Shown: positions 1-64,000 of the stretch, in pieces
How positions within the stretch are numbered: the first letter of the stretch is position 1
Layout of the letters: every line of letters begins with the position of its first letter
Source of the DNA: Malassezia japonica
Lineage: Eukaryota > Basidiomycota > Malasseziomycetes > Malasseziales > Malasseziaceae
NCBI RefSeq assembly: GCF_029542785.1
Contig: NC_083373.1
Location: 434,001-498,000, forward strand
Direction: 5' to 3'
Length of the DNA stretch: 64,000 bases
Notes under the pieces: model-generated
What the model was told of the DNA's origin: nothing
Databases searched by the model: none
The model's input: the letters and a program-made list of their open reading frames with translations, nothing else
Translations under genes and position numbers: made by a program

Positions 1-534
1 ACGAGCCGCGGCTTGGCAGTACGAATGCCCAACAAGTGCCGACCAAGTCGTCGCCCATCAGCGAAATGTTCTACGGCTACCTCATGCTGTGCGCTAGCAG
101 CTATCAGCCGGCGATGGGTACGTCGAGCGACTCACACAGGCTATCTTCTCCGTGCATTAGCACTCCAGCCCAACGATCCCCTCTTGTGCCTCCTGTGCAG
201 TGTCGCGTGCTTCAGCCGCGCGACGAACCGCCAGGTGGATAACCGCAACCACACCATCGTGCAAGGTCTCGCGATCCTCACGCAGTACGCCGACCTGCGG
301 CCGAACAGCGCCGAGGTCGAGTACAATTTCGGGCGCGCGTACCACCAGCTCGGCCTGCTCCACCTCGCCGTGCCGCGCTACCAGCGCGTGCTCGAGATGG
401 CCGAGCAGCCCAACAAGGCCGCCGGCGGCTTTGGTATGGCACGCGAGGCCGCCTTTAACCTCGCGCTGCTCTACGCCAGCGCCGGTTCTCCACATCTCGC
501 ACAGGCGCTCTACCGGCGCTGGTTGGTTGTATAG
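1..534 (+). CDS. TFC4: TFIIIC TPR subunit Tfc4, 3' end only
   Basis: This is the C-terminal end of the TPR subunit of RNA polymerase III factor TFIIIC, which bridges promoter-bound TFIIIC to TFIIIB. The gene enters from the left edge. Coding exons are 3-117 and 140-534, separated by a 22-nt intron (118-139). The spliced peptide reads through the junction as SSYQPAMGYLLRALALQPND, a TPR helix pair. It is followed by the family-typical NRQVDNR segment, the FGRAYHQLGLLHLAVPRY repeat and the terminal LAQALYRRW. The unspliced frame has a stop, so the intron is needed. The next gene's ATG lies 19 bp after the stop, with a CACGTG between them. The family call rests on motif recall. Confidence 0.85.
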   Translation, partial: TSRGLAVRMPNKCRPSRRPSAKCSTATSCCALAAISRRWVRRATHTGYLLRALALQPNDPLLCLLCSVACFSRATNRQVDNRNHTIVQGLAILTQYADLRPNSAEVEYNFGRAYHQLGLLHLAVPRYQRVLEMAEQPNKAAGGFGMAREAAFNLALLYASAGSPHLAQALYRRWLVV

Positions 535-535
535 A

Positions 536-541
536 CACGTG
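536..541. promoter_or_regulatory. CACGTG E-box, EMC10 promoter
   Basis: CACGTG sits in the 19-bp gap between the TFC4 stop and the EMC10 ATG. It is the only recognisable element there. It is one of eleven intergenic copies in the window; a bHLH (Cbf1-like) reader is inferred. Confidence 0.45.
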
Positions 542-553
542 GCAATTCCAACG

Positions 554-1452
554 ATGCATTGGTCGAGGGCCGTGCTGCTGATCGCGGCGCTCGCGCAGGC
601 CGTGCTGGCCGATAGCGAGACGTACACGTTGCTGCACCGTGCGCAAAAAGTACTGGATAGTGGAATGCAGACGTACTCGGCGTGGCAGCCGCGTGCGCTG
701 ATTCGCGTGCCGACGACGGCGGCCGGCGGCGACGGTCTCCCTCTCCAGGAGGGCATCACGACCGAGACCAACTTCCCTGACCCGGACACGGACGCGTACT
801 ACCAGCTGCTGGCAGTCAGGGGCGATGCGCGGTCATTTTCGCACGACGAGTGGCAGAAAAAGGTCGCGGATCTCGACGGTTTCCTCGCGTTTGTGAAGCT
901 CGTATGTATTCTAGCTCATCCAGTGTCAACTGCGGACGGCTTCCGATGCGCCGCTTGAGGATATTGTGCAGCTGCACCTGTCAAAGCGCCCGCTCGGGCC
1001 CGGCGAGGCGGGCACGCCGCCGCGTGTCGTTGGCCTGTCGTATGCGATCCAGCCCCAGGTCCCGTACGACGACAATGCGTGCCCGGTGTTTGGCACCGGC
1101 GTAGCGACGCACCATTCCGACACCTTTTCGACGTCGGTCGAGATTATGGTGCCCGAGACGCCCGAGGTGTACGTCCCCTTTCTGACGCAGCCCCCTCCGC
1201 CTGGCCGAAGAACCGATCGACGAGACGACCGAAGAAGGCAAAGCCAAGGCCAAGGCCAAAAAGGCCGACGAGCCCTTTGATCCGATCGCGTTCGTCCGCA
1301 AGTACTGGCTGTATATCCTCCCGATTGTCATCCTAATGGCGATCCCTGTCGGCGAAGAGGTCGGTGAGCCCGCGCCACAGAGCGACCGCCCTGCACCGGG
1401 CCGCGTCGCGGCTGGGCCGGGCAAGGGCCCTGCGCGTGCGCCGCGCAAGTAG
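554..1452 (+). CDS. EMC10: ER membrane protein complex subunit 10 (Emc10)
   Basis: EMC10 is a lumenal/TM subunit of the ER membrane complex, which inserts TM proteins. Exons 554-901, 924-1168 and 1191-1452 (introns 902-923 and 1169-1190, both 22 nt) give 284 aa. Residues 1-19 form a signal peptide (hydrophobic core, cleavable after VLA). The lumenal beta-domain contains LHRAQKVL, LSYAIQP and a DDNACPVF segment. Near the C-terminus, KYWLYILPIVILMAIP is a single TM helix followed by a short polar tail. The acidic and Lys-rich linker (EEPIDETTEEGKAKAK) lies only in the exon-3 frame, supporting the second intron. The start is the first ATG after the TFC4 stop and begins the signal peptide. Regulation may involve the CACGTG at 536-541. 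Confidence 0.78.
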
Positions 1453-1486
1453 TCGTTCCCCTAGTGTACTCTACGCACACGATCTC

Positions 1487-1499
1487 TGCTGAGTCAGCA
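1487..1499. promoter_or_regulatory. TGCTGAGTCAGCA bZIP palindrome in BUD23 promoter
   Basis: This 13-bp palindrome is centred on TGAGTCA, 18 bp upstream of the BUD23 ATG. It matches the classic AP-1/Gcn4-type bZIP core with flanking TGC/GCA (a MARE-like extension). Binding is inferred. Confidence 0.45.
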
Positions 1500-1517
1500 C
1501 ACTTTTTTTAGGCGACC

Positions 1518-2415
1518 ATGAGCCGGCCGGAGCATCAGGCGCCGCCGGAGATCTACTATGGCGACACCGAGGCGCGGAAATACACGGCAAAGTACGTACA
1601 GCTTCTCACACAGCACACGCAACCAAGATATCCAGGCCGAAATGGCGCTGCGTGCGATCGAGCTCATGGCGCTGCCGCCGCATCGGCACCCTGCCCTGAT
1701 TCTCGACATTGGGTGCGGCTCGGGCCTCTCTGGCGAGATTTTGACCGAGATGGGCCACGAGTGGATTGGATACGACATCAGTCCCAGCATGCTGAGCGTG
1801 GGCCTTGAGCGCGACGTCGAGGGCGATATGATTCTGTCGGACGCAGGGCACGGCTGCATGTTTCGTGCCGGCAGTTTCGACGGCGCGATCTCCATTTCGG
1901 TGCTACAGTGGCTGTGCAATGCAGACACGTCGTACAACTCGCCCGGCGCGCGTCTGAGCACATTCTTCACGACACTGTATGCGTCGCTGACGCGCGGCGC
2001 GCGCTGCGTCTTTCAGTTCTACCCCGAGAACGACGACCAAGTCCAGTTTATCATGTCGCAGGCGACCAAGGCCGGCTTTGGCGGCGGTCTCGTCGTCGAC
2101 TATCCCAACTCGGTAAAGGCCAAGAAGATCTACCTTGTGCTCTGGGTCGGCGGTGAAATGATGGTCGGCCCCAACGGCGAGGGCCAAGGCGTGAAGCAGG
2201 AGCTGCCCAAAGCGCTCGAGTTTGACGCGCCGGGCGCCGGCCAAGTGCGCCACGAGACGCGCAAGGCGGGCGACCCGCGGCGCGAGCGCACTATGAAAAA
2301 GAAGGGCGAGTCTATGAAGCAATATATCCAGCGCAAGAAGGATCTCGACCGCTCACGCGGCAAGGCCGTACCCCACGACTCCAAGTACAGCGGCAAGAAA
2401 CGTAGGAGAAAGTAG
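1518..2415 (+). CDS. BUD23: 18S rRNA (guanine-N7) methyltransferase Bud23
   Basis: Bud23 is a SAM-dependent methyltransferase that modifies a guanine in 18S rRNA during 40S assembly, working with Trm112. Exons 1518-1591 and 1614-2415 (22-nt intron 1592-1613) encode 291 aa. The N-terminus has PPEIYYGDTEARKYT, continuing after the junction into NTRNQDIQAEMALRAIELM. The SAM-binding loop is LDIGCGSGLSGE, followed by the acidic-strand motif GYDISPSML. FDGAISISVLQWLCNA is the family signature, and a basic C-terminal tail (KYSGKKRRRK) matches the nucleolar/ribosomal role. The start was chosen because MSRPEHQAPPEIYY matches the family N-terminus. It is followed by UFE1 after only 24 bp. Confidence 0.93.
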
Positions 2416-2439
2416 TGATGTGGAGGTATCCCGACGACG

Positions 2440-3623
2440 ATGCGGGGCGCAGTGCCGGCGCGGTCGGACCAGACGGATGCGTTTCATGCGCTGCTGCGCG
2501 AGTGCCAGAGCAAAGGCATTGAGTCGGAGCCCGCACCGAAACCGAGTGCGGCTGTGGCCAAGCAGCGTGCGGCGGCCGAGTCGTGGACCAAAGAGGCCTA
2601 TCGCGTAGTACGTATACTGTCTCACCAGAAACGGCACATTGCGTCGCTGTACACGTTCCTCGCGACGATCAGGCGGCCGTACCTGGACATTTCGTCGAAA
2701 GGGCGGCGCGCAGGTCGCCCGGATAGCGACGCGGGTCCGTCCGGCGACGAAAGCAAAAAGGAAGACGCGTTTGCCAAGTGGCAGCACATTACCACGCTCA
2801 CCGACGCGGAGCGTGACGAAATCGACTTTCAGGTGAAGCTGGTGATTAAGCAGTGCCTTGACCGCGTGCAGGAGCTCGAGCGGGGCGAGAAGCGTACGTC
2901 TTTTTTTTTTTTTTGCTCACACAGTCCGAAAGCAGGCGGTAGACAAGTCGCTGCAGTCGGCGGGCGGCACGGCCTTTGCGCCGCTCATGCTGCTCAAAGG
3001 CGGCGCGATCGCGCGGCAGCAGGCTGCGTCTGACGCCGTCGCCGCGCACCATGCGGCGGTGACACAGTACCTGTCCGAGCAGCTTGCGCGTGCCTCGTCG
3101 ATCCAGGCGACGCTCCAAGCGCGGCGCGTCGACGCGCAGCAGCAGCGGCACCAAAAGCTGTCGGACGGCGTGAAGCACGCGCGGCACGGCAGCCAGCACG
3201 ATGCGCCGGACCTTGCGCTGCGCGGCAGCGTCGGGGCGCTCGACGGCCAGCCTGGCAAAGACGTGACGCAGGAGCTGTCCAAAGAGCAGGTGCAGGTCTT
3301 TGAAGAGGAGGCCTCGGCGCTGATCCAGTCGCTGCAGAACGATCTGCAGGCGATCCATGTCGCCGAGCAGCAATTGCACGACATTTCCGAGCTGCAGACG
3401 CGAATTGTGCAGCATCTGCAGGAGCAGAACGAGCATACCAACCAGCTGCACACCGAGGCGGCGGGCCACGGCGAGCAGGTCACGTCCGGCAACCAGCAGC
3501 TGCGCAAGGCCAAAGAGCGCAACCGGCAGGCGAACCGGTTCCTGTCGCTGTTCTTTGTGGTGAGCGGTTTACTGCTGCTGTTGATGCACTGTATGTACTC
3601 TATCTGACACAGGGCTCGACTAG
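2440..3623 (+). CDS. UFE1: ER t-SNARE Ufe1 / syntaxin-18
   Basis: Ufe1 is the Qa-SNARE of the ER for retrograde Golgi-ER fusion and ER homotypic fusion. Exons 2440-2607, 2629-2893, 2925-3590 and 3613-3623 give 369 aa. The first intron (2608-2628) is 21 nt and leaves the frame unchanged. I accept it because removing it aligns EAYRV-KRHIASLYTFL without a gap to the syntaxin-18 N-domain helix. The second intron (31 nt) carries an uninterrupted T tract; the third is 22 nt. The C-terminal part holds the SNARE coiled coil (ISELQTRIVQHLQEQNEHTN) and a tail anchor (FLSLFFVVSGLLLLLMHW) with only two lumenal residues before the stop. A glycine-poor linker separates N-domain and SNARE motif. Convergent with the next gene, 9 bp away. 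Confidence 0.82.
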
Positions 3624-3632
3624 GAACGATGG

Positions 3633-5152
3633 TTACTCGTGTAGCTCCTTCGAAGTACCAAACTGGGTGAGACGCGCGGCGTACCTTGGGAAGGCGCAGA
3701 TAAATGTCCGTGCCATAGCTGTGTGAGTTGCGCTGCGTACCCTTCGAGAGTCCGGAAATCAAGGCCGCCGCCAAAGAGCTCCGCGTAGAGATTGACGCTG
3801 GGTGAGCATGTCTATACGCACATCGGCAGTCCGTTTTTGGACTCCATGCTGAGCACAGAGAGACGCATCAGGCCGTCGCCGCCCGGGTAGGAGACGGTCG
3901 GGTCCGGCGTCACTGCGCCGTCAATGAGGTTGGCGTCGCGCTCGCTCGTCGACGTCTGCTCGAGCTGGATGTTCATCTTTTCGAGCTGCTCGCCGATATT
4001 CATAAACGACCACACGAGGCCGGACTCGTCGTTTGCGTGGCCCGCCTCGTCGCTGCCGGCCAGCATGATGGGCCCCCGCGCGCGCGTCGCGAGGTTCTCG
4101 GCCTGCGAGCGGTCCGGCGCGGCGGTCGCCGTGAGGCCGCCGCCGCGGTCCGAGATGCGGATCGTCATGTCGGCGCGGTCGGGCCCCTCGACGATCGTCA
4201 GGCGCACATCCGGCGGATTCGGCGTCGCCTCGCCGTCGGTCCTATAGTGCCGCATCGTGGACTGCATCGACACCTTGCACAGCTCGAGCAGGATAAACTC
4301 GAGGTGAGCGGGCAGGTAGGCGATGTGCACGTCCGTGTCGCCCTCGACGACGACATTTGGGATACGCGTGTCGTCCGTACTCCAGTTGTATAGCTGCGCA
4401 ATCGACTCGCGCGCGATTGCGACGCTCTTTTCAATCGCCTGCAGCACGCTCAGGTGCGTATCGATCATGCCGATCTTGGTCGAAATGCGCGGCTCCTTGC
4501 CGGACGACTGCATGACGGACAGCGCAATGTGCTGCTTCGCAAGGACTTCACGCGAGACTTGCGAGCGCAGCATGCGTGCAAGGAACAGGTCGACCGTCTC
4601 GGGCTCCATGTAGTGCACACACTCCCGGCTGATGCCCGCGATGAGCGACAGCTTGCTCTTGCGCTCCGACAGGAGCTGCGTCACGACCCTGATCAGCTCC
4701 TCGTTCTGCTCGAGCGTCTGGATCTTGTCCATGCGGCGCAGCGTCTCAAACGTGCTCCAGTAGTACTGGTAGATCGAGTCCAGCTGCTCGTTCGACATTG
4801 CCACAAACGGGAGCGTCTGCATGTCGCGGAGGCGGTGCGCGATGCGGGTCGTGAGCTCGGTGCGCAGGTAGTTAGCACTCTCCATCAGCAGCGCACGGTT
4901 GCGCCGCGCGCTCTGCCCAAAGAGAATCAGCTGCCGGAGCGTGGTGCGCTTCGCGGGGACATTGGCCCACTGCTCGACCATGCGGTTGCGATAGAAGAAA
5001 CGGCCAAGCGCCGCCGAGTCCTCGTCGCTCGCCGCGGCCGTAGACGGCGTCGAGATGCGCGGCGCACCGCACACACGCGCCGACGTCCACAGCCGGGCCG
5101 CACCGACGCGCGGAAGTCGCTGCGCCAGCGTCATGGAATGTGGAGAACGCAT
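3633..5152 (-). CDS. Mitochondrial PDK-family kinase-like protein, degenerate ATP site
   Basis: It belongs to the pyruvate/branched-chain dehydrogenase kinase family (fungal Pkp type), which phosphorylates E1-alpha in the mitochondrial matrix. Minus-strand exons are 5152-3822, 3797-3741, 3718-3685 and 3662-3633 (introns 24, 22, 22 nt), 483 aa. The Arg-rich N-terminus (MTLAQRLPRVGAARLWTSAR) looks like a mitochondrial presequence. The regulatory helical bundle is followed by a GHKL ATPase fold. ISDRGGGL (G1 box) is intact and the C-terminus NGLPIVNLYAELFGG...LEGYGTDIYLRLPK is canonical. However the N-box reads ELCKVSMQS where family members have ELxKNAxRA, and the GxGxG lid is ESKNG. It may be a pseudokinase. 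The ATG is 6 bp after the stop of the upstream minus-strand gene. Confidence 0.8.
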
Positions 5153-5158
5153 GGATCA

Positions 5159-11113: not shown

Positions 11114-11492
11114 ATGTCGCAAACGCCGAGTGTGTCGCGCAGCAGCCGCCAGCTGTGCTGGGAAAGCCGCGATAGCTACTATGCGTGCTTGACCTCCCAC
11201 AAGATCCTCGCTCCACCGGGCACCGACATGTCAGACACCAAAGGGCCGCTCGGCCGCGGAGGGTTTGCCGAGAAAACCTCGCCGGAGGAGCGTGCACGGA
11301 TCCTGGCCGAGCAGCGCGCCAACGACCCGTGCACGCCACAGCGCGATGCGTACGAAAAGAACTGTGCGCAGAGCTGGGTACGTTGCTATGCTCACACAGG
11401 TCGATTACTTCAACAAGCGCCGCATCCTCGACGAGCGCCAAAAACAGTTCTACGCTGAGGCCGAGGCGCGTGTCGCGGCACAGAACAAGTAG
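11114..11492 (+). CDS. COA6: Cytochrome c oxidase assembly factor Coa6
   Basis: Coa6 is a small intermembrane-space protein for copper delivery to Cox2. Exons 11114-11377 and 11400-11492 (22-nt intron 11378-11399) give 118 aa. A CX9C pair ([11 protein letters not shown]) and a CX10C pair ([12 protein letters not shown]) form the twin-Cys helical hairpin. CAQSW then continues after splicing as [16 protein letters not shown], the conserved end of the COX6B/Coa6 fold. No presequence is expected for a Mia40 substrate. The insertion between the two Cys helices ([20 protein letters not shown]) is longer than in Cox12, which favours Coa6. The stop codon (11490-11492) abuts the stop of the convergent gene with no base between. 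Confidence 0.85.
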
Positions 11493-12195
11493 CTACTCTA
11501 TATGGGGGGTTGTAGGGCTGGCCTTTTGCAGCAGGGTATGGCGCACGTCGCGCAGCGCGCCGGTCGTCCCGCCGGCCGCGCCACCGAGGAGCAGCATCCG
11601 GGGAAGCACGGGCGTAGGGAGGCGGACTGGGTAAGCAGGAAAACGTACAGGCAAGTCCCGCAATGAGCGCAGTCGCGAGGCCCGCAAGTGTGCCGTCCGA
11701 CCAGTGGCCGAGGTACGCGAGCAGCGGGCGGTCCTCGCGCGGCTCGTCGCGCACGCGCTCGGCCGGCTCCCAGCGGTTGCGCGCGTGCTCTGCCAGCACG
11801 TCAAGCAGGCAGAATCCACCGACCCAGCCGGCCATGTGCAGGCCGGTCTCGGCGCCGGTCTGTGCGCCGCCGAGGATCATGCGGTAATATTTCGTCTTGT
11901 TGTAAAAGTACCATCCTTGCACGGTTCGCGGCAGGCGGTGCGCATTCTCCGCAAGGAACACGAGCGCCGTGCGCCGTGCGCCGCTCGCCATGCCCGACAG
12001 GAACCCAAGCCCGAAGGCGGACGCCACGAGGAGCGTGCTGAGCGGCATGTGCACCGCGACCGGCGTGTGGTTTCCTTCCGGCACTTCTTCTGGGAGGTCG
12101 CTAGATGCAGCTTCAGCGACAGGCGCAGGTGCAGGCGCCGTGGCCGCCGCCGGCGCCGCCGCCGGCGCGGATCCCCAAGGCCACCATCCCCCCAT
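11493..12195 (-). CDS. Small Gly-rich multi-TM protein, unidentified
   Basis: Minus-strand exons 12195-11649 and 11626-11493 around a 22-nt intron (11627-11648) give 226 aa. An Ala/Pro-rich N-terminus is followed by about four hydrophobic helices with glycine spacing: LLVASAFGLGFLSGMASG, the GLHMAGWVGGFCLLDVL region, GTLAGLATALIAGLAF, and MLLLGGAAGGTTGAL in the second exon. Between the first two is a conserved-looking segment, FLAENAHRLPRTVQGWYFYN. The layout resembles the Tim17/22/23 group, but I cannot confirm membership, so I assign no function. The ATG is chosen at MGGWWPWG; an upstream GTG in frame is not a start. Stop-to-stop contact with COA6. Confidence 0.75.
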
Positions 12196-39519: not shown

Positions 39520-41269
39520 CTATTTGTTCTCGTTCACGTCGCCGAGCGCCTCGCCGACCTTGATCTTTTGTCCGGCCTTGAAGTGGAAGTGGAAGTCGTC
39601 GGGGGCTTCGAACACGAGCACAATCGTGCTCCCGAGCAGGAAGCCGCCCATCTCCTCGCCGGCCGCCAGCGGCTGGCCACTGAGGATGCGGCTCGCGGCA
39701 TTGTACGTCGCCTCGGCATAGGTGCCGGCAAACCGGCGCTCGCCACGCACATTCGTGCGCAGGTTGCGGTCAAAGTTGATGCGGATCGAGCCGACGTTGG
39801 TCGCGCCGATCGGGATCATGCTAAAGAAGCCGTGGCGCCAGCGGCCCATCAGCGCCACACGCTCGTTCAGCAGGAACAGGTTCGGGAGACGCTTGGCCAC
39901 ATACGGCGAGACGGAATACAGCTCGCCACGGAAATGCCGCCGCATCTCGACCACCCACGGCACCGGCGAGTGGAACCGGTGGTAGTCGCCGGGCGCGAGG
40001 TAGATCACGCAGAAAAAGAGGCGGTGCCCGGGGCGCAGCGCGTTCGGGCGGATCGATTGGCCATGCGTAAAGGAGGGGATCGCCTCGGAGCCCATCTCAT
40101 AGGCCACATTGGCATAGTGCCCGAGGTTCTCGGGCGTGTCCGAGGTCGGAATACCCGCGTCGCCCACGTCGACTTCGGCATCGTCGCGCGCACGCGCCTG
40201 CAAGCGGCTCTCGGTCTGGTTGCGGGGACCGGTGATGGACGAGGCAGTCTCGCGCACGTACCGCCACGAGCCCTTCATCCAGCCCAAGAAGTAGGAGCGC
40301 ACCGAGTTGCGCTGCTTGGTGCTGTCGCCCATCAGCTTCTCGAGCGAGTAGTCGATACCGTTCACATTCGCAAACTTCTTCTCGTCGGCCATCTCGTAGT
40401 CCTTGAAGCCTTCCAGGGGCACATCGTCCTTGGACTGCGCCGGGGCATTGTGGCCGAGGAGCGAGTCAAGCGAGTAGGTCAGGCCCTTGACCTGCTCCAC
40501 GCGGTCGCCCTCGATGCGCCCGAGGTGCAGCACAGTGCCGTCAGCAGGCGACAGCAGCAGCGAGTTCGCCAGCGGGCGCACGCCGGGCTTGAGCTCGCGC
40601 GAAAAGAACTGCCCGAGACTCTCGTAATGCGTCAGGTCGGGGTCGAGCATCTCGTCCAAGTTGCAGCCAAATGCCCACGCATACAGCTTAAAGCCGTACG
40701 GGCGGAACCACACCGGGAGCGTGTGGCTGTTCATCCAGCCCCACGTCCGGCTGATGGTGTTGAGCGGAAGCGCGCCGAGCACATAGAGCTGAATGAGCGT
40801 TTAAACGTACCGACCACGGTCCTTTGACGCGCACGGGCTGGCCCGTCGCATCGACCAACGTCTCGGACACAATGCGCTCGTTGCGCTGCCACTGGCGGTG
40901 CGCCTGGACACCAACAAGCACCACGGCGCCCAGTAGCACCGGCAGCGGCGCCCACTTCAGGGGCGTCTCGTTCCACACGCGCCACGCGCGCGACCACTTC
41001 GACTTGCGGCGGCGGCGGGGTGCCTCTTGCACGCTGTCGCCGTCGTGCAGCTGGTGGATACGCGCCCGCTCACTGCGCTGGCCAGCGACCGTGCCGGCCA
41101 AACGCTCCGCCTCGGCGGGATCGCGCGAGTAGCCGCGCGTGCCGGGCTGCGCGGCCATCCAGCGCGCACCGCTCGCCTGTGCCTCTGCCGCAGGGGGAGC
41201 CGGCGCGGCAGCGACCCCGCGCGCGACACGCGCTGCCCGCACTGCCGAGTCCTTGCTCAGCGCCCACAT
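39520..41269 (-). CDS. PSD1: Mitochondrial phosphatidylserine decarboxylase Psd1
   Basis: Psd1 converts phosphatidylserine to phosphatidylethanolamine in the inner mitochondrial membrane. Exons 41269-40811 and 40788-39520 with a 22-nt intron (40789-40810) give 575 aa. An Arg/Ala presequence (MWALSKDSAVRAARVARGVA) precedes one TM helix (LKWAPLPVLLGAVVLVGVQA). The catalytic domain begins LPLNTISRTWGWMNSHTLP and includes SLGQFFSRELKPGVRP, LSPADGTVLHLG, LAPGDYHRFHSPV and the self-cleavage motif LGST (GGFLLGSTIV), which yields the pyruvoyl alpha subunit. The intron joins the TM exon to the catalytic exon at GPWS/LYVL. The branch motif is CTCAT rather than CTCAC. Confidence 0.96.
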
Positions 41270-42678: not shown

Positions 42679-43275
42679 TTAGTCGTCGTCCTCGTTCTTG
42701 TTATCCTTTTCGTGCTTGACCCAGTCGGACCACGAGCCAGGGTAGTTGCGCGTGCTGTGTGAGTAGAACCAACGTACTTCCACCAGCCGCGCTGGCGAGC
42801 GATCTCGAGCGCCTCCTGCGAGCGGCGGCCCGAGCGGCAGTAGAACACAATCTCGTGGTCGTACGTAGGACGCGGGAACGAGAACCTGCGCTCAAAGTCC
42901 GTCGAGGACACCGACTCGCTGTTCACGTCGAACGCCGCGGAGAATTCCGAGAGCGGGACGTTGACGGCCGAGGGGATGATGCCCTGCGCGACCTCGTTCG
43001 GCTCACGGACATCGATAATGTCGATTTTCTGCGTTAGCATCAATACATACGCCGCTGGGCGTCTCGGTGTAGGGCTTGAGCTCCTCGTAGGTGATGGGCC
43101 CCTTGTCGACCCACGAGCGGTCCTCCTTGAGGACCACAGACGAGGTCGAGATCGAGCGGGGAAGCGTGGGCTGCGCCTGGGCAACAGCGACACGCGCGAC
43201 GCTCGCGGCAGGAGCGCGCGCGGCGATGCGTGCAGCGATGGGCGCGGAGCGGAGTACAGGGCGGAGCGACTGCAT
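42679..43275 (-). CDS. Mitochondrial single-domain rhodanese
   Basis: A rhodanese (thiosulfate sulfurtransferase) similar to fungal Rdl1/Rdl2. Exons 43275-43051, 43028-42778 and 42754-42679 with introns of 22 and 23 nt give 183 aa. The N-terminus (MQSLRPVLRSAPIAARIAAR) is a typical mitochondrial presequence. The domain starts ITYEELKPYTETPSG, then after the first junction KIDIIDVREPNEVAQGIIPS (rhodanese CH2A). The active-site loop is FYCRSGRRSQEA with catalytic Cys. After the second junction NTRNYPGSWSDWV completes the fold. The tail is Lys/Asp-rich. Divergent from NOP58 with CACGTG between. Confidence 0.88.
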
Positions 43276-43407: not shown

Positions 43408-44839
43408 ATGGTGCTGGTCTTGTTCGAGACTGCCGTAGGCTTCTGCCTGTTTTCGCTTTCTGATGAGGGCAAGGTGAGCTCTCCGGACTTGTATAAGTCG
43501 TTCGAGAGCGAGACGGAGGCGAACCGTCTGCTGCAGCTCTCGGCGATCCACCGCTTCCAGAGCACGGTCGAGGCGGTGGAAGGCGCTACGGCCATCAACG
43601 AGGGCAAGCTGAGCAAGGGCCTCAAAAAGTTCCTCCAGCAGGAGATCCTCGAGAAGGGTGGCTCGGCTGGCGCCAAGGGCGCCTCGACGGAAAAGCTCCT
43701 CGTCTCGGAGCCCAAGCTCGGTACGTTTTCTTCGCTCACCCAGCATCGGCCATCACGAAAAAGCTCGGCATTGAGGTGGCGTCGGACTCGAGTCTCATGG
43801 ACCTCTACCGCGGTATCCGTGAGAACCTCGCATCGCTCCTCTCGGGCACCACCTCGGACGAGGGTGCGCTCGACCCGCGGGACCTCAACACCATGTCGCT
43901 CGGTCTCTCGCATAGCTTGAGCCGCTACAAGCTCAAGTTTAGCCCGGACAAGGTGGACACGATGGTTGTCCAGGCGATTGCGCTCCTCGACGACCTCGAC
44001 AAGGAGCTCAATATCTACGCCATGCGCGTCAAGGAGTGGTACGGCTGGCACTTCCCCGAGATGGGCAAGATTATCACCGACAACATCGCCTATGCCAAGG
44101 TGATCCGTGCGGTCGGTTTCCGCACCAACGCCTCGGCCTCGGACCTTGCCGAGATCCTCCCGGAGGAGATCGAGGCGACGCTCAAGTCCGCCGCCGAGAT
44201 CTCGATGGGTACCGAGATCAGCGAGACGGACATGGAGCACATCTGGAGCCTCTGTGACCAGGTGATCGCCATCAGCGAGTACCGCGCGCAGCTCTACTCC
44301 TACCTCTGCAACCGCATGGCGGCCATCGCGCCGAACCTCACTGCCCTGGTCGGCGAGCTGGTCGGCGCCCGCCTCATTTCCCACGCGGGCTCGCTCATGA
44401 ACCTCGCCAAGCAGCCTGCCTCGACGATCCAGATCCTGGGTGCCGAGAAGGCGCTTTTCCGTGCGCTCAAGACGAAGCACGATACGCCCAAGTACGGTCT
44501 GCTCTACCACTCGAGCCTGGTCGGCATGGCCGCGCCCAAGTCCAAGGGTAAGATGGCGCGCATGGTCGCGACCAAGGCGGCCCTCTCGACGCGTCTCGAC
44601 GCGCTCGCAGACGCCGAGTCGAAGGCCGACATGTCGGGCCCCACGATCGGCTCCGAGGCGCGCGCCAAGCTCGAAGCGCGTGCGCGTGGCCTCGAGAACC
44701 GCACGGCGGTGTCGGGCGTGCGTGCCGGCCGCGGTACCGACGGCGGCTACAAGCAAAAGGCGTACGTCCCCGAGGCCAACGGCCGCGCGTACAATGTCGG
44801 TGCGGACGCGCCGCCGGTCGTGACGGGCGTCGCCGACGA

Positions 44840-45105: not shown

Positions 45106-46766
45106 CTACGACGTGTGCACGAGATCGATGCGTGCACGGCTATAGAGTTCGTGCGTAATTAGCTCCTGACTCGCCTCCTCGCCCTGGAAGAGCGTGTCGC
45201 GAGGCATGGCGTCGACCTGCATGCGCACAAACGACGGCAGATTCCCGGCCGCTTTCGGCGTGCCCGCGGGCGCCGGCGAGGCCAGCGCGCCGGGGTTGAC
45301 GACCATCGTCGAGTCGACCACACGCAGGAAAGGCTTGACGCGCGCCGACGGGAGCAGCAGCAGGTCGGGCGTCACCTGGTCCAGGCCACAGAGACGCGAG
45401 TGCGACAGGTCCAGAGGGAGCATCGACGCGCTCGACGGCGGAAAGATGGGGTAAAAGCTCCGCTGGCCCAGGACGTGCCGCGCAAGGCGCATCATGGGGT
45501 CGCGCGCATCGGCAGATGACGGCGCTTTCTCGTCAGCCTGCACACGCTGCACGAGCTCCTCGCGCCGCAGATCACCCAGCACGTCGGCGGTGCTCACGCC
45601 AATCGCGAGCTCGTTGATGTAAAAGACGCTCGGATTCGGCAGGCACCGCACGCGCTTCGGCAGTCCGAGCGCCGCGTTGGTCTTATCGAGGAACGGCTGG
45701 GGGAACGCGTGGTGCGTGTGGAACACGTCTTCAGTGCTCGGCACGAGGATCGCCATCGTGCCCGGGGCCCGCTCCAGGAGCCGCGTGAGACGCTGGCCAA
45801 TGTGCTGCCGAAAGATGTCGGTCGGCATCGCGTCCAGGTCGCCGGTCGCGACCTTTTCGTGCGACGCGCTGAGAAAAGGGCCCATGAGCACGAGCACGTC
45901 GGGCTGCTCGGCCTCGATGAGGCTCATGAACGCGTGCCACGGGCGGAAGGCGAGGTCCGCCGCGTCCGTGTACGGCCCTGACGCGGCGACGACACGCAGG
46001 GGCTTGCCGCCCAGCTTGTTCTCGTCGTACTGGTGCTGCACGAGCTCCGCACGGCTCGTCGCAGGGTGCGGCAGGGCAGGGGGCTGCGTTAGCATAGGCA
46101 CGTACAATGAGGAGCTCCTCGGCGACAAACTTGCTGCCGCTGCCGTTGCGCCCTTTCACGCCGACAACCATGCCCGGAAAGAGACCGACAATGTTGGTGC
46201 TCTGTACCGCGTCGTCCGCCCACGCGTACCGCACGCGGCACGACGGGTCGAGCGCAAGGGGGATGCGCTGGCCGTTGCCGAGCATGCGGCTCGACTCGAG
46301 CATGAGGTCCGCCGCGCTCAGGCGCGCGGGGCCCGCGTTCGACTCTTGCTTGGCATTCGGATCGAGGCGCGCACAGATGCGGCCGACCGAGTAGATGCTC
46401 TCCTGCGAGGGGATCGACGGGTCCTCGAGCTCGGCGACGCCAAACGACTGCCGGATCACCTCGGCGAGGTCGTCGAGGCGGTTGTCGAGTTCTGCATCAG
46501 AGGCGATACGTACCGAGACTGCGCTCGCCTTTCTTTTCAAACATGTAGCGGTAGTTCCATTGCTTCAGGTCCGTGCTCACCGCGAGCGAGACGCGAGGCG
46601 CTGCGAGACGCGGCGCGTCGGCGTCCCACGTCGACGGCTTCTCGCCCTGGTACGACTCGCCGACGTACAGCGATGCCTTCCACGAACCGTCCTCTGGCTT
46701 GACTTCATGGCTGCGCGCCGCGTCGGGGGCGCGCTGCGCACCCAGCAGCGAAGAGAGGTCGGCCAT
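45106..46766 (-). CDS. POL12: DNA polymerase alpha B subunit Pol12
   Basis: Pol12 is the non-catalytic B subunit of DNA polymerase alpha-primase, needed for initiation and telomere capping. Exons 46766-46514, 46491-46106 and 46083-45106 with two 22-nt introns give 538 aa. YRYMFEKKGERSLELDNRLD spans the first junction. An OB-fold part follows (SCRVRYAWADDAVQSTNIVG, LFPGMVVGVKGRN). The inactive phosphoesterase domain has LRVVAASGPYT, PDVLVLMGPFL, ILVPSTEDVFHTHHAFPQP and RCLPNPSVFYINELAIGVS, the usual Pol12 landmarks. The C-terminus ends ELYSRARIDLVHTS. It shares a 54-bp divergent promoter with TFC1 carrying an ACGCGT box. Confidence 0.93.
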
Positions 46767-46820: not shown

Positions 46821-48486
46821 ATGGCGGCGGCGCCGTCGTGGCAGGTCCCACCCGAGACGCTTGTCACGATCGAGTACCCCGGCGTGGTCCAAAAAGGCAC
46901 AGCGTCACTGGAGCGTGCGCTTTCGACGCTCTCGCCAAATGTCGGCCCGACAGACGGGATGCCGAGCGCGGCGAGCGCGCTCAGGCACCTCGCACGGGTC
47001 CTCTCGCTCGGAGGCAAGCTCGTCGAGTGCCGCCTCGCACCGACCGACGGCGAGGAGGGAGACGCGATGCAGATCTACCGGCACCCGTTGCTCGGCGATA
47101 TTGTGAGTGGGAGCGAGCTCGTAGTACGCATCCAGAAGCGGATATGGCGCTGCACGCATGCGGATGGCCGAACCGAAGAGCGCAAAGAGTACCTCGTGAC
47201 GCTTCTCGGCGGCGTGCGTGCTACGGTGCGTTTCCGACGCATGGCCGACTTTGCGTTCCGGCCGGACGTGCCGTCCGGCGCACACGAGCACCCGACGCTC
47301 GCGCTGCACCGCGCCTTGGTCGAGATGAACGTCGGCGCGATGCAGCGCTTCCGCTTCCCCAACGAAACGGAGGAGTACGAGGTGCTGGACACAGAGCACG
47401 GAAAGCGCATGCGCAGCGACCTCGCCATGATTCCTCCGCCGATCTTTTCGCGCATGGAGCTGCCGTTCAATTATGGGTACGTCGTCCGGCTCATCCAGCT
47501 ATCGCCAAAACCCCGCGTCGAGTCTGCAGACGGTCTCGTACGCGTCGACGGCCAAGCGGTCGCGGCGCACCGCCCGGAAGGGGCAGGCGGATACCGAGAC
47601 GCCCGAGCCGAACCAGCGCATTCTCACACGGTACCTTAACCGCTCGCGGTGGCGAAACATGGCGCCGACCGCGCTCAAGTTTGCCGAGGACGCCCCTGCG
47701 CCGACCGAGCCCGAGGCGGCACTCGCGCAGGTGCCCCTCTCGGACCGGCACCAAGGGCTCCTCGCCGAGCTGCACAAGGTATGTCTCCCCCCCGCTAACG
47801 CAGCGATTTGACGAGCGCCCGGTCTGGTCGCGGCTCAGTCTGCTGAATCAGTTTTCGGTGAGCGAGGCGCGGACACTGGTGCAGTGCGTAGACCGACTGA
47901 CGCAGGGCCAAGGAGCTGTTTGCGCTTGTCGCCTATACGTTTGCCGATGGGCCGTGGCGCGATACCCTGATCAAGTTTGGTCACGATCCACGCACGGACC
48001 CCGAGAGCCGCTTGTACGTTGCGAGTCTGACGCAGCTTCCAGCGCATCCACCTGCGCGGCAAGACGCCACGCACGCCCGCGACGCGGGGCGTGTTCAAGG
48101 CCGAATACGGCGACGTGTCGCAGAGTGTGCGCGACGCCCCCTCTCCTCCTGCCTCTGAGATGCGCGCCGCGACACACATCTTTGACGGCAAGCACAGCGC
48201 GCTCGCCTCGAGCACGTTTCAGCTGTGTGACATTACCGATATCAGCATCGTCCCCCTGATCCATGCCGAGGGCCCTACCAACATTCGCGATACGCCCGAC
48301 GTCGCCACGGGGTGGTACACGGCCGAGGCATGGGAGTCGATCCGTGCGGCGATCTCGCGGCAGTTCCATGCGCTGCTCAACGACGCGCCCGCGCCGTCTG
48401 CGTCGGCCGCGGAGCATGCGCGCCTGCGCGCCCCGTGGGACGAGTCGCAGGACCCCCCCGGCAGCTCGTCGAGTGAGGATGCATAG
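46821..48486 (+). CDS. TFC1: TFIIIC subunit Tfc1 (tau95)
   Basis: Tfc1/tau95 is the A-box-side DNA-binding subunit of TFIIIC. Exons 46821-47476, 47499-47778, 47804-47883, 47906-48013 and 48036-48486, with introns of 22, 25, 22 and 22 nt, give 524 aa. The N-terminal dimerisation barrel starts LVTIEYPGVVQK, with RHPLLGDIVSGSELVVRI. RFPNETEEYEVL and IPPPIFSRMELPFNYGYRQN cross the first junction. The DNA-binding half has RPVWSRLSLLNQF, LVAYTFADGPWRDTLIKFGH, DPRTDPESRFFQRIHLRGK, only in register after the last two splices. The tail is acidic/Ser-rich (SQDPPGSSSSEDA). Together with the truncated TFC4 at the left edge, two TFIIIC subunits lie in this window. Confidence 0.9.
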
Positions 48487-48560: not shown

Positions 48561-49193
48561 TTACGCCTTGGTCTCCTCCTTGGCTTCCTCCTTGGCCTCT
48601 TCCTTCTTGTCCTCCTTCTTGTCGTCCTTGGGCTCCTCCTTCGCCTCCTTCTTCTCCTCCTTGGCGGGGCCAGCCGACTCGTTCGACTTTTGCGCAGTCT
48701 CAAACTCCTTCTTGAACAGGTCCGCGTTCTCCGAGTTGGCGAAGCGGATCGCGAGCGTCTCTGCGGTGGGCTCACCGTCCGAGACGTCCGCAGTCACGTT
48801 GTACACCCACGAGCGGTCCGAGCCGACGTTGGGCTGCAGCTTAATCTCGGGCGCGACAAAGTGGTTGGCGCACACCTTGAGGGTCTTGTCGCGGCGCATC
48901 ACGAGGCGGACCTTGCCGGTCTCCTTGTGCTTGAGCAGGCGCACATCGCCGGTGCCACGCTCCTTCCACTCCTTGGACTCCTTGTCGAAACGGAAAAGCT
49001 TCGCGCGGCTGGGTAAGACGGGGTACGTACATCTTGAACTGGACTTCCTCGTCCTCCTCGTTGGTCTTCACCTCGACCTGGTGCTCGAGCTTGATCACCG
49101 GCTCAAATTGGGGCTCGTGCTCGGCCTCAGCGCCCTGCGATTAGCAATACGACATACGCTCGTCAGCGTTTCCTTCGTCTCGTGCTCCGACAT
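48561..49193 (-). CDS. YRB1: Ran-binding protein 1 (Yrb1)
   Basis: Yrb1/RanBP1 is a cytoplasmic co-activator of RanGAP that releases Ran-GTP from export complexes. Exons 49193-49158, 49134-49031 and 49008-48561 with introns of 23 and 22 nt give 195 aa. After a short acidic N-terminus comes the RanBD1 fold: [20 protein letters not shown], then across the second junction [54 protein letters not shown], and later [13 protein letters not shown] with [20 protein letters not shown]. The C-terminal tail is Glu/Lys-rich ([11 protein letters not shown]). The motifs are family-diagnostic. Confidence 0.95.
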
Positions 49194-49274: not shown

Positions 49275-49901
49275 ATGTGGGTCGGTGCGGCTGTGTGGGC
49301 CTGGCTGGTGGTGTGCGTCGCGGCGCACACCATCGACCTTCTGCCGAGCTCGGAGCACTGTTTCTTTGAGGATATGCACGTCGGTGACGAAATGACGCTG
49401 ACGTACCAAGTGTCGGGCGGCGGGCACCTCGACATCGACGTGCGCGTCAAGGACCCCGACAACCAGCTGCTCTTCCAGCAGCTGCGCAAGGATACTGGCA
49501 CTTATGACTTTATCGCCGAGATGGACGGCCGCTATACATACTGCTTCAGCAATGAGTTCTCGACCGTGACGGACAAGACGCTGAGCTTCAACGTGCACGG
49601 CATCCTGTACCTGACCGAGGAGGAGGGGCTCATTCCCGCCGAGCGCGAGCTGCGCGAGCTGGCGACGAATGTACAGATGTTTAAGGACGAGCAAGAGTAC
49701 CTCGTGATGCGCGAGCGTGTACACCGCAACAGTACGTTAAGCCTACTGACCCAGCCGCCGAAAGCACCAACTCCCGCGTCAAGTGGTGGTCGGTCATCCA
49801 GAGCATCTTGGTGGTGCTGGTATGCGCCTTCCAAGTGTACTTTGTCAAGCGGTACGTCGTAATGCTAACGCAGCCAATTCGAGGTACGCCGCACGATCTA
49901 G
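49275..49901 (+). CDS. EMP24: p24-beta COPII cargo receptor Emp24 (TMED2)
   Basis: Emp24 is the p24-beta cargo receptor of COPII vesicles, needed for GPI-anchored protein export. Exons 49275-49731, 49755-49851 and 49874-49901 with introns of 23 and 22 nt give 193 aa. A signal peptide (MWVGAAVWAWLVVCVAA) precedes the GOLD domain: SSEHCFFEDMHVGDEMTLTY, GGGHLDIDVRVKDPDNQLLF and GRYTYCFSNEFSTVTDK, with the two conserved Cys. The coiled coil (KDEQEYLVMRERVHRN) runs across the first junction into TAESTNSRVKWWS. One TM helix is followed by the cytosolic tail VKRQFEVRRTI, readable only after the second splice. The tail has the Phe and basic signals for COPII/COPI. The overall pattern fits p24-beta rather than other p24 classes. 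Confidence 0.93.
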
Positions 49902-51153: not shown

Positions 51154-52114
51154 ATGACGACGGCGCCTACCCCAGCACAAAAGACGCTGCTTGTCGGCTC
51201 GCTTGCCGCGGCGAAAGGCGGCGAATACCAGGCGGCGGTCCAGGATCTCGAGGCGCAGAGCAGTGTGCTCGAGACCGAGATGGTGGACCGCATCACGGAT
51301 ATGGGTACGTGTCTCTGCTCACGCAGCATATAACCCCCCCGCATCTGCGTTTGATGCCGCGTACGTCATGGCACCGTACGGCGAGGTCGCGTGGGCGACG
51401 CTCCTCGGCAAGCTGCACTCCGCGCTCGCGCCTGGCGCGCAGCTCTCTGTGACGCTCTTTGACACGGCCGACGCGCAAAGCGCCGAGTCCAAAATCCAGG
51501 CGGAGCTTGCGATTGCGGGATTCAGCGACAGCCGTGCGGACGGTGGCAAGCTGCGCGCGACGCGTCCCGCCGCCGCTGCCGTCTCGCTTGCGAACGGTAC
51601 GAGTGGGTCGAGTGCGCTCCCCCTGCGCCGCAAGACGGGCGCGATGCCGAACGGCACACAGCAAAAGAAGGCGTCGCTGTGGGCGACGCAGCCCGAGACG
51701 ACCATGAACCCCGAGTCGCTCCTCGCCGGTGTCCAGACCGGCGCACGCAAGCGCGAGGACTGCACGGTGGACTTGAGCGTCCCCCCCGCGCGGCGGAAGC
51801 GTGCGTGCAAGGGCTGCACCTGTGGACTACGAGAGCTGCAGGACGAGGAGGAGGCCGGCCGCTCGGTCGTCCAGCTGGACGGTGGCGAGCTGGGTGGCGA
51901 GCGCTCCGAGGTCGAGACCACCGTCACCGGCCCTGACGGCAAGCCGCGCACTGTGAAGCGTGTCCAGGTCGACACGCGCGGCGCGACGAGCAGCTGCGGC
52001 AGCTGCTTCCTGGGCGACGCATTCCGGTGCAGCTCCTGCCCCTATCTGGGTCTCCCCGCCTTTGAGCCGGGTCAAAAGGTCGAAATCCCAATCTCTATGG
52101 ACGACGATGTTTAG
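51154..52114 (+). CDS. DRE2: Cytosolic Fe-S assembly protein Dre2 (anamorsin)
   Basis: Dre2 carries electrons from Tah18 to the CIA machinery. Exons 51154-51304 and 51327-52114 with a 22-nt intron give 312 aa. The N-terminal methyltransferase-like domain begins [20 protein letters not shown] and continues after the junction as [20 protein letters not shown]. After a flexible linker come the Fe-S motifs: the first cluster site CKGCTCG, with an upstream Cys at EDCTVDLSV, and the second site [17 protein letters not shown] (CX2C-X7-CX2C) followed by [12 protein letters not shown]. All Cys expected of anamorsin are present. The ATG ([10 protein letters not shown]) is preferred over an upstream in-frame ATG at 51085, which would add a non-conserved stretch. 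Confidence 0.93.
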
Positions 52115-61844: not shown

Positions 61845-61858
61845 CGCCGTAGCAAAAG

Positions 61859-61864
61859 CACGTG
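61859..61864. promoter_or_regulatory. CACGTG upstream of CDS1
   Basis: AGCACGTGAC lies 31 bp upstream of the CDS1 ATG, in a 51-bp tandem gap. Confidence 0.45.
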
Positions 61865-61895
61865 ACTTGTGGGGAAACGCCCTGACCCAACTACG

Positions 61896-63519
61896 ATGCC
61901 CTCGCGCGGGAAGTCGGGTGGCACAGAACCGCGTGGAGCGAACCGGTACGCTTCTGCGACAGGTTTTCAAGCGCTGAAAGTCGACCAACTACCCTCGGAT
62001 ACGGAAGATGCGCCCGAGCCGGTGAGCGAGCCCGCTACGCCGCGCACGCGCACAACGTCGAAGCGTGCTGCCAAGACCAAGGCGACGCAGGCGCTCGAGA
62101 CGCAGTCGCCCAAGCCAGGCAAGAGCAACGTCAAGATTGAGGAGCCCGGCAGTGTGCTGACGAAGCGTGCGCCGCGTGCCGCCGAGGCGCCCGCATCCGA
62201 AAAGGCGCCCGCGGCCGCTGCCAAGGAGGGGAAGCAGGCGGATCCCGCGGGTGCGTCCAAGGCGTTCTGGAGGAAGGTGAAGGAGCGCACCGTCTTTTCG
62301 TTGCTGATGATTGCGGGCTTTATCAGTACGTCGTGTAACTCACCCAGCCATCCTGCTGATGGGCCCGTCCTACCTGATCCTGCTCGTGCTCGTGCTCGAG
62401 ACGCTCGTCTACCGCGAGATTACGGCGCTCTTCAATATCCCCGGCCGCGCGAGTTTGACCGGCAGCAGCCGTGCGAGCCAGAGCGAGGCGGACGAGGAGC
62501 TTGATGTGGAGCAGCGTGCGCGCGAGACGCAGCGCGAAGAGCTCTGGAGCAAGACGCTGAGCTGGTACTTTTTCGCGGTGTGCAACTTTTTCCTGTACGG
62601 CGAGTCGCTGATCTACTATTTCAAGCACATTGTGTTTGTCGACTCGTTCTTTTTGCAGTTTGCGCGCCACCACCGGTTCATCTCGTTCATGCTTTACATC
62701 TTTGGCTTTATGGCGTTTGTGTCGAACCTGAAGCGCCGCAACCTCAAGCACCAGTTCGGTCTCTTTTGCTGGGTGCACATGTCGCTGCTGCTGATTGTCA
62801 TGTCGGCGCACTTTATCGTGAACAACATCCTCGAAGGCATCATCTGGTTCTGGGTGCCCGCCAGCCTGGTGATCTGCAACGACAGCTTTGCGTACGTGTG
62901 CGGCATGCTCTTTGGCCGCACCCCCCTCATTTCGCTCTCGCCGAAAAAGACGGTCGAGGGCTTTGTCGGCGCGCTGCTCGTCACCATGCTCTTTGCATGG
63001 TGCTGGGCGGGAATCTTCCAGCGCTTCGACTACATGGTGTGCCCTGCGGTGAACCTCGGCATGAACGCTTTTAGCGGCATGACGTGCGAAAAGAACCCCG
63101 TGTTCCTCTCGCACGAGGCCTTCCTCCCGGGTATCGTCTCGGACGTGCTCACCGCGCTGCTCGGCCGCCCGGTGACCACCTTCCGCTGGAGCATGTTCCA
63201 GTGCCACGCGCTGGTGATGGCCGCGTTCGCGAGCCTCGTCGCGCCGTTCGGCGGCTTCTTTGCCAGTGGATTCAAGCGCGCATTCAACATCAAGGACTTT
63301 GGCGACAGCATCCCCGGCCACGGTGGCCTGACGGACCGCTTCGACTGCCAGTTCATCATGGGGCTGTTTAGCTACGTGTACTACTCCTCACTCATCCGCG
63401 AATCGCGCGTCACTGTCGGGCTCGTGATGCAAATGATCGTTACGCAACTGCCTCTCGACCAGCAAACGCAGCTGCTCCGTGACCTCACGCGCTACCTGGC
63501 CACCGAGGGGCACATTTAA
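61896..63519 (+). CDS. CDS1: CDP-diacylglycerol synthase Cds1
   Basis: Cds1 converts phosphatidate and CTP to CDP-diacylglycerol at the ER, feeding PI, PS, PG and cardiolipin synthesis. Exons 61896-62325 and 62348-63519 with a 22-nt intron give 533 aa. The N-terminal ~130 residues are Ala/Lys/Pro-rich cytosol. Several TM helices follow, with RHHRFISFMLYIFGFMAFVS, VICNDSFAYVCGMLFGRTPL and ISLSPKKTVEGFVGALLVTM. The CTP-transferase signature SGFKRAFNIKDFGDSIPGH-GG-LTD (near residue 451) is intact. Functionally it precedes PSD1 and the lipid-transfer protein MDM12, both elsewhere in the window. Confidence 0.96.
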
Positions 63520-63574
63520 AAGGTAGCCCTGCCAAGCCTGTAGAAGTAGCCCCGCGGCCTGCACGGCCCATCTG

Positions 63575-63580
63575 CACGTG
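63575..63580. promoter_or_regulatory. CACGTG upstream of the right-edge gene
   Basis: TGCACGTGAA lies 83 bp upstream of the ATG at 63664, in the gap after CDS1. Confidence 0.35.
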
Positions 63581-63663
63581 AATGCAACTCGCCTCGCCCT
63601 GCATCCGCGTGCAGCGCGCCGCTCCACTCGCTTTTGCACGCAGCGAGCGACGGACCGCGTCGC

Positions 63664-64000
63664 ATGCATACAGACGGCAGCGGCATGGCCTCCGAGGGGC
63701 CGTGGCCGCAGAGCGATAGCAGTGTACGCATGACAGAGCGACGACATGGGATCGGGCGCGTGCCGGTGCCTGCCGTCGACGGGGGCGCGATCGCTGCACC
63801 GCCCATGCAGTTTGCCAGCCTGCCCTACCTCGCCGAGCAGGCGCCACGCACCCAGGCAGGGCCATCGGCGAGCTTTATGCGACCCGTACAAAACGTGCCG
63901 GCGCCTCTGCCGCAGAGCGCGTCGTTCCACGAGATTCCTTCGGCTCCAGCCTACGGTTTGGAGCCGAGCGGGTGGAACGTGGACCGCAATCCGTTCCGCC
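63664..64000 (+). CDS. 5' end of an unidentified protein (runs off the right edge)
   Basis: An open plus-strand frame starts MHTDGSGMASEGPWPQSDSS and stays open to the last base, 112 codons. It is low-complexity and Pro/Ala/Ser-rich (IAAPPMQFASLPYLAEQAPR, VPAPLPQSASFHEIPSAPAY) and ends GWNVDRNPFR at the edge. This resembles the disordered N-terminus of a larger protein, so no family can be named. A 337-base frame without a stop on the strand of its neighbours supports coding. The start is uncertain; other in-frame ATGs lie at 63685 and 63730. Confidence 0.55.
   Translation, partial: MHTDGSGMASEGPWPQSDSSVRMTERRHGIGRVPVPAVDGGAIAAPPMQFASLPYLAEQAPRTQAGPSASFMRPVQNVPAPLPQSASFHEIPSAPAYGLEPSGWNVDRNPFR

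Follow-up and report, generated by a model that had tools for sequence, protein, structure and literature searches.

Near-uniform 22-nt introns with a fused branch site and acceptor in Malassezia japonica

The lower limit of intron length, and what determines it, is an open structural question, and it is raised here by a 64,000-nt stretch of the genome of the basidiomycete skin yeast Malassezia japonica (Ustilaginomycotina; RefSeq assembly GCF_029542785.1, contig NC_083373.1, referred to here as contig C4, positions 434001-498000), hereafter the window, in which most introns have one and the same length. Our analysis of the window and of the remainder of the genome (8.43 Mb in nine contigs) supports the view that these introns are held closely to one length, crowd against a sharp minimum and have the branch site and the acceptor fused. 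They are very probably ordinary U2-type spliceosomal introns, reduced in M. japonica to the shortest form that its spliceosome accepts.

The window was scanned with a pattern consisting of a GT[AG][CT]G[TC] donor, 4-12 bases, the branch motif CTNAY, 0-4 bases and a YAG acceptor. Of the 33 candidates returned, 32 were kept (25 of 22 nt, one of 21 nt, four of 23 nt, one of 24 nt and one of 25 nt); the candidate at 29726-29751 was set aside by judgement because it sits inside an uninterrupted 1360-aa frame. Together with three longer introns of 31, 36 and 564 nt, which were placed separately (Table 1), the window holds 35 introns in 19 genes, thus recovering the numbers and lengths given in an earlier note made from the letters of the window. 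Removal of the GT...AG segment restored the reading frame at all 35 junctions, in agreement with the claim of that note that the spliced lengths are multiples of three. On the other hand, the "exactly 7" bases that it had placed between the donor hexamer and CTNAY were found in 27 of the 35 introns and not in the remainder, and a branch A lying 5 nt from the final G was found in 30 of the 32 introns detected by the scan and not in the other two. In the window the strict 22-mer GTACGTN7CTNACNCAG was counted 15 times, compared to a mean of 0.00 in 100 dinucleotide shuffles.

The strict 22-nt pattern is present 1,784 times (922 + 862) genome-wide, and the reversed pattern is present 0 times. The distribution of lengths and of distances from branch A to AG, which had been proposed as a check, was obtained for a sample of 264 kb (the window plus 200 kb of contig C1; around 3% of the genome), revealing a peak at 22 nt and a gap of mostly one base. 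In the one-base-gap class of this sample, donor-to-acceptor lengths numbered 84 at 22 nt, 15 at 23 nt, 4 at 24 nt and 5 at 25 nt, with none at 20-21 nt, and the reversed sample gave 0 at 22 nt and 6 altogether across 16-39 nt. The fused motif followed 99 of 242 GTACGT hexamers, versus 3 of 165 in the reversed sequence. Scaling by the ratio of strict 22-mers in the genome to those in the sample (1,784/57) extrapolates to about 2,700 introns of 22 nt genome-wide, and the same kind of extrapolation from 145 predicted introns of 20-30 nt gives about 4,500 introns in that range. At C1:63943-64001 (G000), two strict 22-nt introns are found 15 bases apart, with a possible 15-nt microexon between them.

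The same length was obtained with a signal-blind gene finder, which used coding potential, ATG, stops and GT...AG pairs 12-120 nt apart, with no length preference and no consensus. Of the 111 introns that it predicted, 29 were at 22 nt, and the donor hexamer and the CTNAY-YAG end were both present, unrequested, in 49 of the 56 predicted introns of 30 nt or less. Eight decoy dinucleotide pairs yielded 90-112 introns each, with just 1-5 at 22 nt. Seven of these decoys cannot end in AG, so their missing acceptor motifs are uninformative; the GC-AG decoy can, and ended in the acceptor motif 40 times. The 55 predictions of 31-120 nt were treated as noise because they were no commoner with GT...AG than with the decoys, which gave 68 or more. 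When introns of up to 300 nt were allowed, 22 of 130 were 22 nt long and none was shorter. The long introns predicted under limits of 300 and 700 nt were spurious and merged neighbouring genes, and therefore only the short class and the 564-nt intron were used. With trained signals, the finder produced 138 rough gene models in the sample, 81 of them intron-bearing, and 182 introns of up to 100 nt, of which 86 were of 22 nt and 145 were of 20-30 nt; six predictions of 12-17 nt, below the 21 nt of the shortest intron in the window, are probably wrong, and we make no claim on them. Boundaries from the finder are rough, and within the window it misses or misplaces some introns modelled by hand, such as those of UFE1 and BUD23.

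In these introns, the span between the first G and the putative branch A is what is held constant; the spacing from branch to AG is softer. We tabulated all GTRNGY-CTNAY pairs lying 0-55 bases apart in the 264 kb, each with the first YAG downstream. The seven-base spacing, which puts the putative branch A 16 nt from the first G, accounted for 111 pairs, with gaps of 0, 1, 2 and 3 bases before YAG in 1, 98, 11 and 1 of them, respectively; all shorter spacings together, with the same gaps, gave 5 pairs versus 10 in the reversed sequence. As there are 111 pairs at 16 nt and no excess below it, the lower edge is a property of the donor-branch distance. For the strict motif, the counts at free spacings of 0 to 15 bases were 0, 0, 0, 0, 0, 0, 0, 57, 11, 1, 3, 0, 1, 0, 0 and 0. 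This 16-nt distance is found in the 21-nt intron and throughout the 22-nt class, and also in those 23-nt introns that have two bases between branch motif and YAG. Because the acceptor lies 0-3 bases past the branch motif, usually one (CTNAC-N-CAG), there is no room for a separate polypyrimidine tract. Position +4 of the donor is C in 113, T in 19, G in 17 and A in 2 of 151 introns. In the 86 gene-finder 22-mers the branch motif, with the consensus CTNAY, puts little constraint on its third position (A 25, C 27, G 24, T 10), and the spacer, which the earlier note had described as seven free bases, is not fully so, with G at +8 in 43, C or T at +9 in 73 and A or G at +13 in 71.

The spliced products of 18 of the 19 genes match a Pfam family or repeat, so the claim that each splice restores a known family stands for all of them except the minus-strand gene at 11493-12195; in the first gene of the window, which is presumably TFC4-like, TPR repeats are the sole family support. 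Seventeen of the 35 junctions are covered by the best stretch of an above-cut-off Pfam match, one lying at its very edge, and when the Malassezia relatives of NNF1, TFC1 and STX18 are added, homology extends across 21 of the 35. The clearest case is PIG-F, in which the spliced 295-aa product matches its family at 2.4e-21 and the unspliced 299-aa frame is without a Pfam match. The spliced NNF1 product is 100% identical over 206 aa to the deposited M. japonica protein, from which all four 22-nt introns have been removed, and M. sympodialis proteins run unbroken across all eight junctions of NNF1 and TFC1. For each of the 11 junctions in NNF1, TFC1 and STX18 there are Malassezia relatives whose proteins run straight through; exceptions are the M. 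furfur NNF1 models, which diverge near junctions 1-2, one M. vespertilionis NNF1 model from which five residues are missing at junction 2, and one TFC1 model of M. furfur without the stretch between junctions 3 and 4.

Some deposited proteins of relatives carry extra residues at these junctions, which were sized by eye on the alignments, and the inserts were back-translated in search of an intron of the exact length with donor, branch and acceptor; as whole residues are counted, insert lengths are multiples of three by construction. Such an intron, equal in length to the insert, could be back-translated from four of the five inserts: one of 27 nt for NNF1 of M. vespertilionis and likewise of M. 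furfur, one of 36 nt for NNF1 of M. sp. CBS 17886, and one of 24 nt for TFC1 of M. caprae. Control windows of random protein pass 23-32 times per 20,000. Two of these four are missing from a second model of the same species (M. vespertilionis P0034 and M. furfur P0036). An intron with a length multiple of three can stay in without breaking the frame, and some of the public Malassezia proteins seem to contain such introns unnoticed. Read from the protein letters, relatives seem to carry introns of 24, 27 and 36 nt at the same positions. For the fifth insert, in STX18 of M. sp. CBS 17886 (P0006), no intron of the inserted length fits; this protein has an insert and a C-terminal extension at junction 3.

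For STX18 (window 2440-3623) and TFC1 (46821-48486) the search, confined to database proteins 0.55 to 1.75 times as long as the query, returned no M. japonica-named or full-length near-identical protein, which suggests broken or missing public models. The warning that standard gene finders will truncate or split these genes is thus favored by the four models of relatives that fit retained introns and by the two proteins that did not turn up; on the other hand, the deposited M. japonica NNF1 correctly splices all four 22-nt introns, and therefore annotation does not always fail. The deposited NNF1 proteins of M. japonica (window 31677-32385, minus strand), M. brasiliensis and M. sp. CBS 17886 are named tyrosinase despite their listed Pfam Nnf1.

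Among the small nuclear RNAs, U2 (123 bits), U6 (81 bits) and U5 (53 bits) were found over the Rfam cut-offs, with U2 carrying the usual branch-recognition stretch GTAGTA and U6 the usual ACAGAGA. The U6 sequence at L010:1501-1605 (minus strand) has CCCTGCAGTAAGG at a place where the Rfam consensus has one base fewer. Slu7 is encoded by an open 421-aa frame that matches the solved SLU7 chain 5xjc_Z, which we take to be the human one, over residues 16-414 (399/421; E 8.8e-118), and its CCHC stretch is presumably the zinc knuckle. Prp18 was found as two pieces covering model positions 51-142 of 143, at a locus that shows candidate short introns; the second piece is read with one in-frame TAA, taken as an overrun of a junction. 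As Slu7 and Prp18 are both present, a loss of second-step splicing factors was rejected. A U2AF65-like protein scored 224 bits, under the model cut-off of 310. Slu7 and the U2AF65-like protein, which look ordinary, cover part of the set of splicing factors that the earlier note had named for comparison.

U1 was not found in searches with the Rfam U1 model at E 0.001 and E 10, which scored 41/132 candidates, nor with three patterns, modelled on the 5' end and the 70K-binding loop of U1, that were run on the genome. In the Rfam search at E 0.001 no control genome gave a match either, and failure of U1 to turn up in these five attempts does not establish its absence. The lone hit of one pattern starts a coding frame and did not match the U1 model even at E 10. 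Read on its opposite strand, the third pattern is itself donor-like, so its six hits were suspect by design; in antisense, two read as full fused introns, two as plausible longer introns and two are ambiguous, with no U1-like stem-loop in any. The C at donor position +4 might correspond to a compensating change in U1, a possibility that we considered; T and G occur there too.

Microsporidia have short introns. Anchoring of the branch point before the acceptor has been described in other lineages, and in the sections of Irimia and Roy 2008 (PMC2483917) used here it lies 2 nt before AG in Yarrowia lipolytica and 4 nt before AG in Trichomonas vaginalis and Giardia lamblia. The introns of M. japonica, at 3 nt on that scale, share with them the fixed branch-to-AG distance and the absence of a polypyrimidine tract. 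These sections treat the three genomes as intron-poor, and a table in them gives 204 and 268.75 for Yarrowia, which we take to be the median and mean intron length; in contrast, short introns are frequent in M. japonica, the rough finder giving 145 introns of 20-30 nt in 138 gene models, 81 of them intron-bearing, in the 264 kb. M. japonica differs further from anchored introns of the Yarrowia/Trichomonas type in that the donor-branch distance is fixed too, and in that the strong WCTRAY branch consensus does not hold, its third base being free. The type B introns of T. vaginalis, as given in the extract of PMC12316389 (2025), are around 25 nt, down to 23 nt, with a branch motif near the intron end, and resemble those of M. 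japonica in near-uniform short length and in the place of that motif, although they number 24, compared to the extrapolated 2,700 here. The same extract counts 23 nt as one of the shortest lengths known, with Stentor (15 nt) and Bigelowiella (18 nt) as the only comparable cases, and the text available of PMC5014332 gives introns of around 25 bp for Paramecium and Nyctotherus. All four of these lineages, unrelated to M. japonica, likewise show a tight length near the minimum. Unlike genomes of the Paramecium/Stentor type, however, M. japonica does not hold all its introns in one narrow peak, lengths in the window trailing off to 36 nt, with a single intron of 564 nt.

Within the genus, the passage on introns in a 2020 review (PMC7426719) states that Malassezia genes hold very short introns and gives no lengths, floor or signal anatomy, a survey (PMC8476143, in the part available) places M. 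sympodialis among intron-poor species, and the portion of PMC4634964 on two M. globosa annotations reports average introns of 76 and 79 nt, which does not suggest a 22-nt norm there. Among the literature matches listed, no comparable fungal case of ultra-short introns was found, and none of their titles or abstract openings mentions 22-nt introns. What is new here is the sharp floor and the scale; short introns in Malassezia, and a fused branch and acceptor in other lineages, were already known, and the lengths may already be in print, for instance in the genome and proteogenomic papers on M. sympodialis.

If the introns of M. japonica are ordinary ones at their shortest, the floor would arise because U6 and U2 must hold the 5' splice site and the branch site together in the catalytic centre, and no scanning would precede the use of the first YAG past the branch. 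Introns would have been driven to that wall by deletion bias or by selection for genome compactness, leaving a short tail, and the peak would be the product of erosion and not of gain. Several observations weigh against this interpretation. Removal of the introns, which comparative evidence indicates to be real, is deduced from genomic sequence and protein comparison, 14 of the 35 junctions are without homology across them and have the motif and the restored open frame as their basis, and the branch position is the putative A of CTNAY, placed from the motif. The nearly free third base of that motif implies that pairing with U2 is imperfect in many introns, the biases at +8, +9 and +13 would not be needed in a passive spacer, and U1 was not recognised. 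The other lengths that relatives seem to carry imply that the 22-nt peak may not be genus-wide. Physical limit, deletion bias and selection are kept apart by none of the tests performed here.

The earlier note had proposed a spliceosome specialised for minimal introns. In this reading, altered factors of the lineage would act as a ruler preferring exactly 22 nt and a fused acceptor, with no physical wall involved. The sharp mode at the floor, the spacer biases, the unrecognised U1 and the extra base of U6 relative to the Rfam consensus are in line with such a ruler; however, Slu7, Prp18, the U2AF65-like protein and the U2, U5 and U6 RNAs all occur in the genome and look standard, so that a special spliceosome need not be assumed, and introns of 23-36 nt and the 564-nt intron of RPL29 coexist with the 22-nt class and have similar signals. 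A specialised spliceosome is thus possible, unsupported by the machinery examined, and we regard it as quite unlikely. Uniform length and signals could also be produced by recent gains of one short element, introner-like or template-built, in place of the shrinkage of old introns. Spacer bases vary between introns, leaving aside the three biased positions, and the Malassezia relatives, the only ones compared, appear to have introns of different length at these NNF1 and TFC1 positions, as if old introns had shrunk separately, which makes recent gain very improbable. As the introns are known here from DNA and protein comparison, the segments could in principle be skipped by other means, for example RNA editing or translational bypassing; the GT...AG ends, the branch-like motif, small nuclear RNAs and splicing factors in the genome, and decoy dinucleotides that yield no 22-nt peak render this explanation almost certainly wrong. 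Ordinary introns shrunk to the shortest accepted form remain the reading that we prefer. The further proposal that in this lineage the catalytic spliceosome physically cannot work below a donor-branch distance of 16 nt, with no 3' splice-site scanning and with co-adapted changes, including the unrecognised U1, that read the extended donor GTACGTNGY and the fused acceptor as one fixed-length signal, is speculative and, taken as a whole, unlikely.

The positions of the 35 introns are presented in Table 1. RPL29 (window 32517-33305) has an intron in its start codon followed by the only long intron among the 35.

Table 1. Introns of the 64-kb window, with window coordinates and the evidence for each.
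Intron	Position	Strand	Evidence
22-nt, TPR-repeat gene (5' end beyond window)	118..139	+	motif scan, gene model; TPR repeats alone do not span junction
22-nt intron 1, EMC10-like gene	902..923	+	motif scan; frame restored
22-nt intron 2, EMC10-like gene	1169..1190	+	motif scan, gene model; within PF21203 match
22-nt, BUD23/WBSCR22-like methyltransferase	1592..1613	+	motif scan, gene model; Pfam match downstream of junction
21-nt intron 1, UFE1/Syntaxin-18	2608..2628	+	multiple of three; missing from relatives' proteins
31-nt intron 2, UFE1/Syntaxin-18	2894..2924	+	gene model; relatives' proteins
22-nt intron 3, UFE1/Syntaxin-18, near stop codon	3591..3612	+	gene model; relatives' proteins
24-nt, BCKDK/PDK-like kinase	3798..3821	-	motif scan, gene model; Pfam match upstream
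22-nt, BCKDK/PDK-like kinase	3719..3740	-	motif scan; frame restored
22-nt, BCKDK/PDK-like kinase	3663..3684	-	motif scan; frame restored
22-nt, COX6B-family gene	11378..11399	+	motif scan, gene model; within Pfam match
22-nt, gene without Pfam match (11493-12195)	11627..11648	-	motif scan; frame restored only
22-nt, PIG-F (GPI11)	25813..25834	-	PIG-F match in spliced frame only
22-nt intron 4, NNF1	31770..31791	-	deposited M. japonica protein; relatives' proteins
22-nt intron 3, NNF1	31897..31918	-	deposited M. japonica protein; relatives' proteins
22-nt intron 2, NNF1	32147..32168	-	deposited M. japonica protein; relatives' proteins
22-nt intron 1, NNF1	32266..32287	-	deposited M. japonica protein; relatives' proteins
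36-nt, splitting RPL29 ATG (AT/G)	32519..32554	+	frame restored
564-nt, RPL29, ends TACTAACCTCTCAG	32655..33218	+	within L29e match
22-nt, PSD1	40789..40810	-	motif scan, gene model; Pfam match elsewhere in protein
23-nt intron 2, rhodanese-domain gene	42755..42777	-	motif scan; within Pfam match
22-nt intron 1, rhodanese-domain gene	43029..43050	-	motif scan; at extreme edge of Pfam match
23-nt, NOP58	43721..43743	+	motif scan; between two Pfam matches of one protein
22-nt intron 2, POL12	46084..46105	-	motif scan; between two Pfam matches of one protein
22-nt intron 1, POL12	46492..46513	-	motif scan; immediately before OB match
22-nt intron 1, TFC1	47477..47498	+	gene model; relatives' proteins
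25-nt intron 2, TFC1	47779..47803	+	gene model; relatives' proteins
22-nt intron 3, TFC1	47884..47905	+	gene model; relatives' proteins
22-nt intron 4, TFC1	48014..48035	+	gene model; relatives' proteins
22-nt intron 2, RanBP1/YRB1	49009..49030	-	motif scan; within Pfam match
23-nt intron 1, RanBP1/YRB1	49135..49157	-	motif scan, gene model; upstream of Pfam match
23-nt intron 1, EMP24	49732..49754	+	motif scan; within Pfam match
22-nt intron 2, EMP24	49852..49873	+	motif scan; within Pfam match
22-nt, DRE2/CIAPIN1	51305..51326	+	motif scan; within DRE2_N match
22-nt, CDS1 (CTP_transf_1)	62326..62347	+	motif scan, gene model; upstream of Pfam match

With most of its introns apparently at the shortest length that the splicing machinery accepts, M. 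japonica makes the physical lower limit of splicing testable in a fungus, and its many introns of one length, by extrapolation some 2,700, with their sharp lower edge provide a natural measure of the minimal donor-branch distance. From work in yeast, Slu7 and Prp18 are thought to matter mainly when the acceptor lies far from the branch, and M. japonica allows asking whether both factors are still needed where the acceptor is nearly always adjacent to it.

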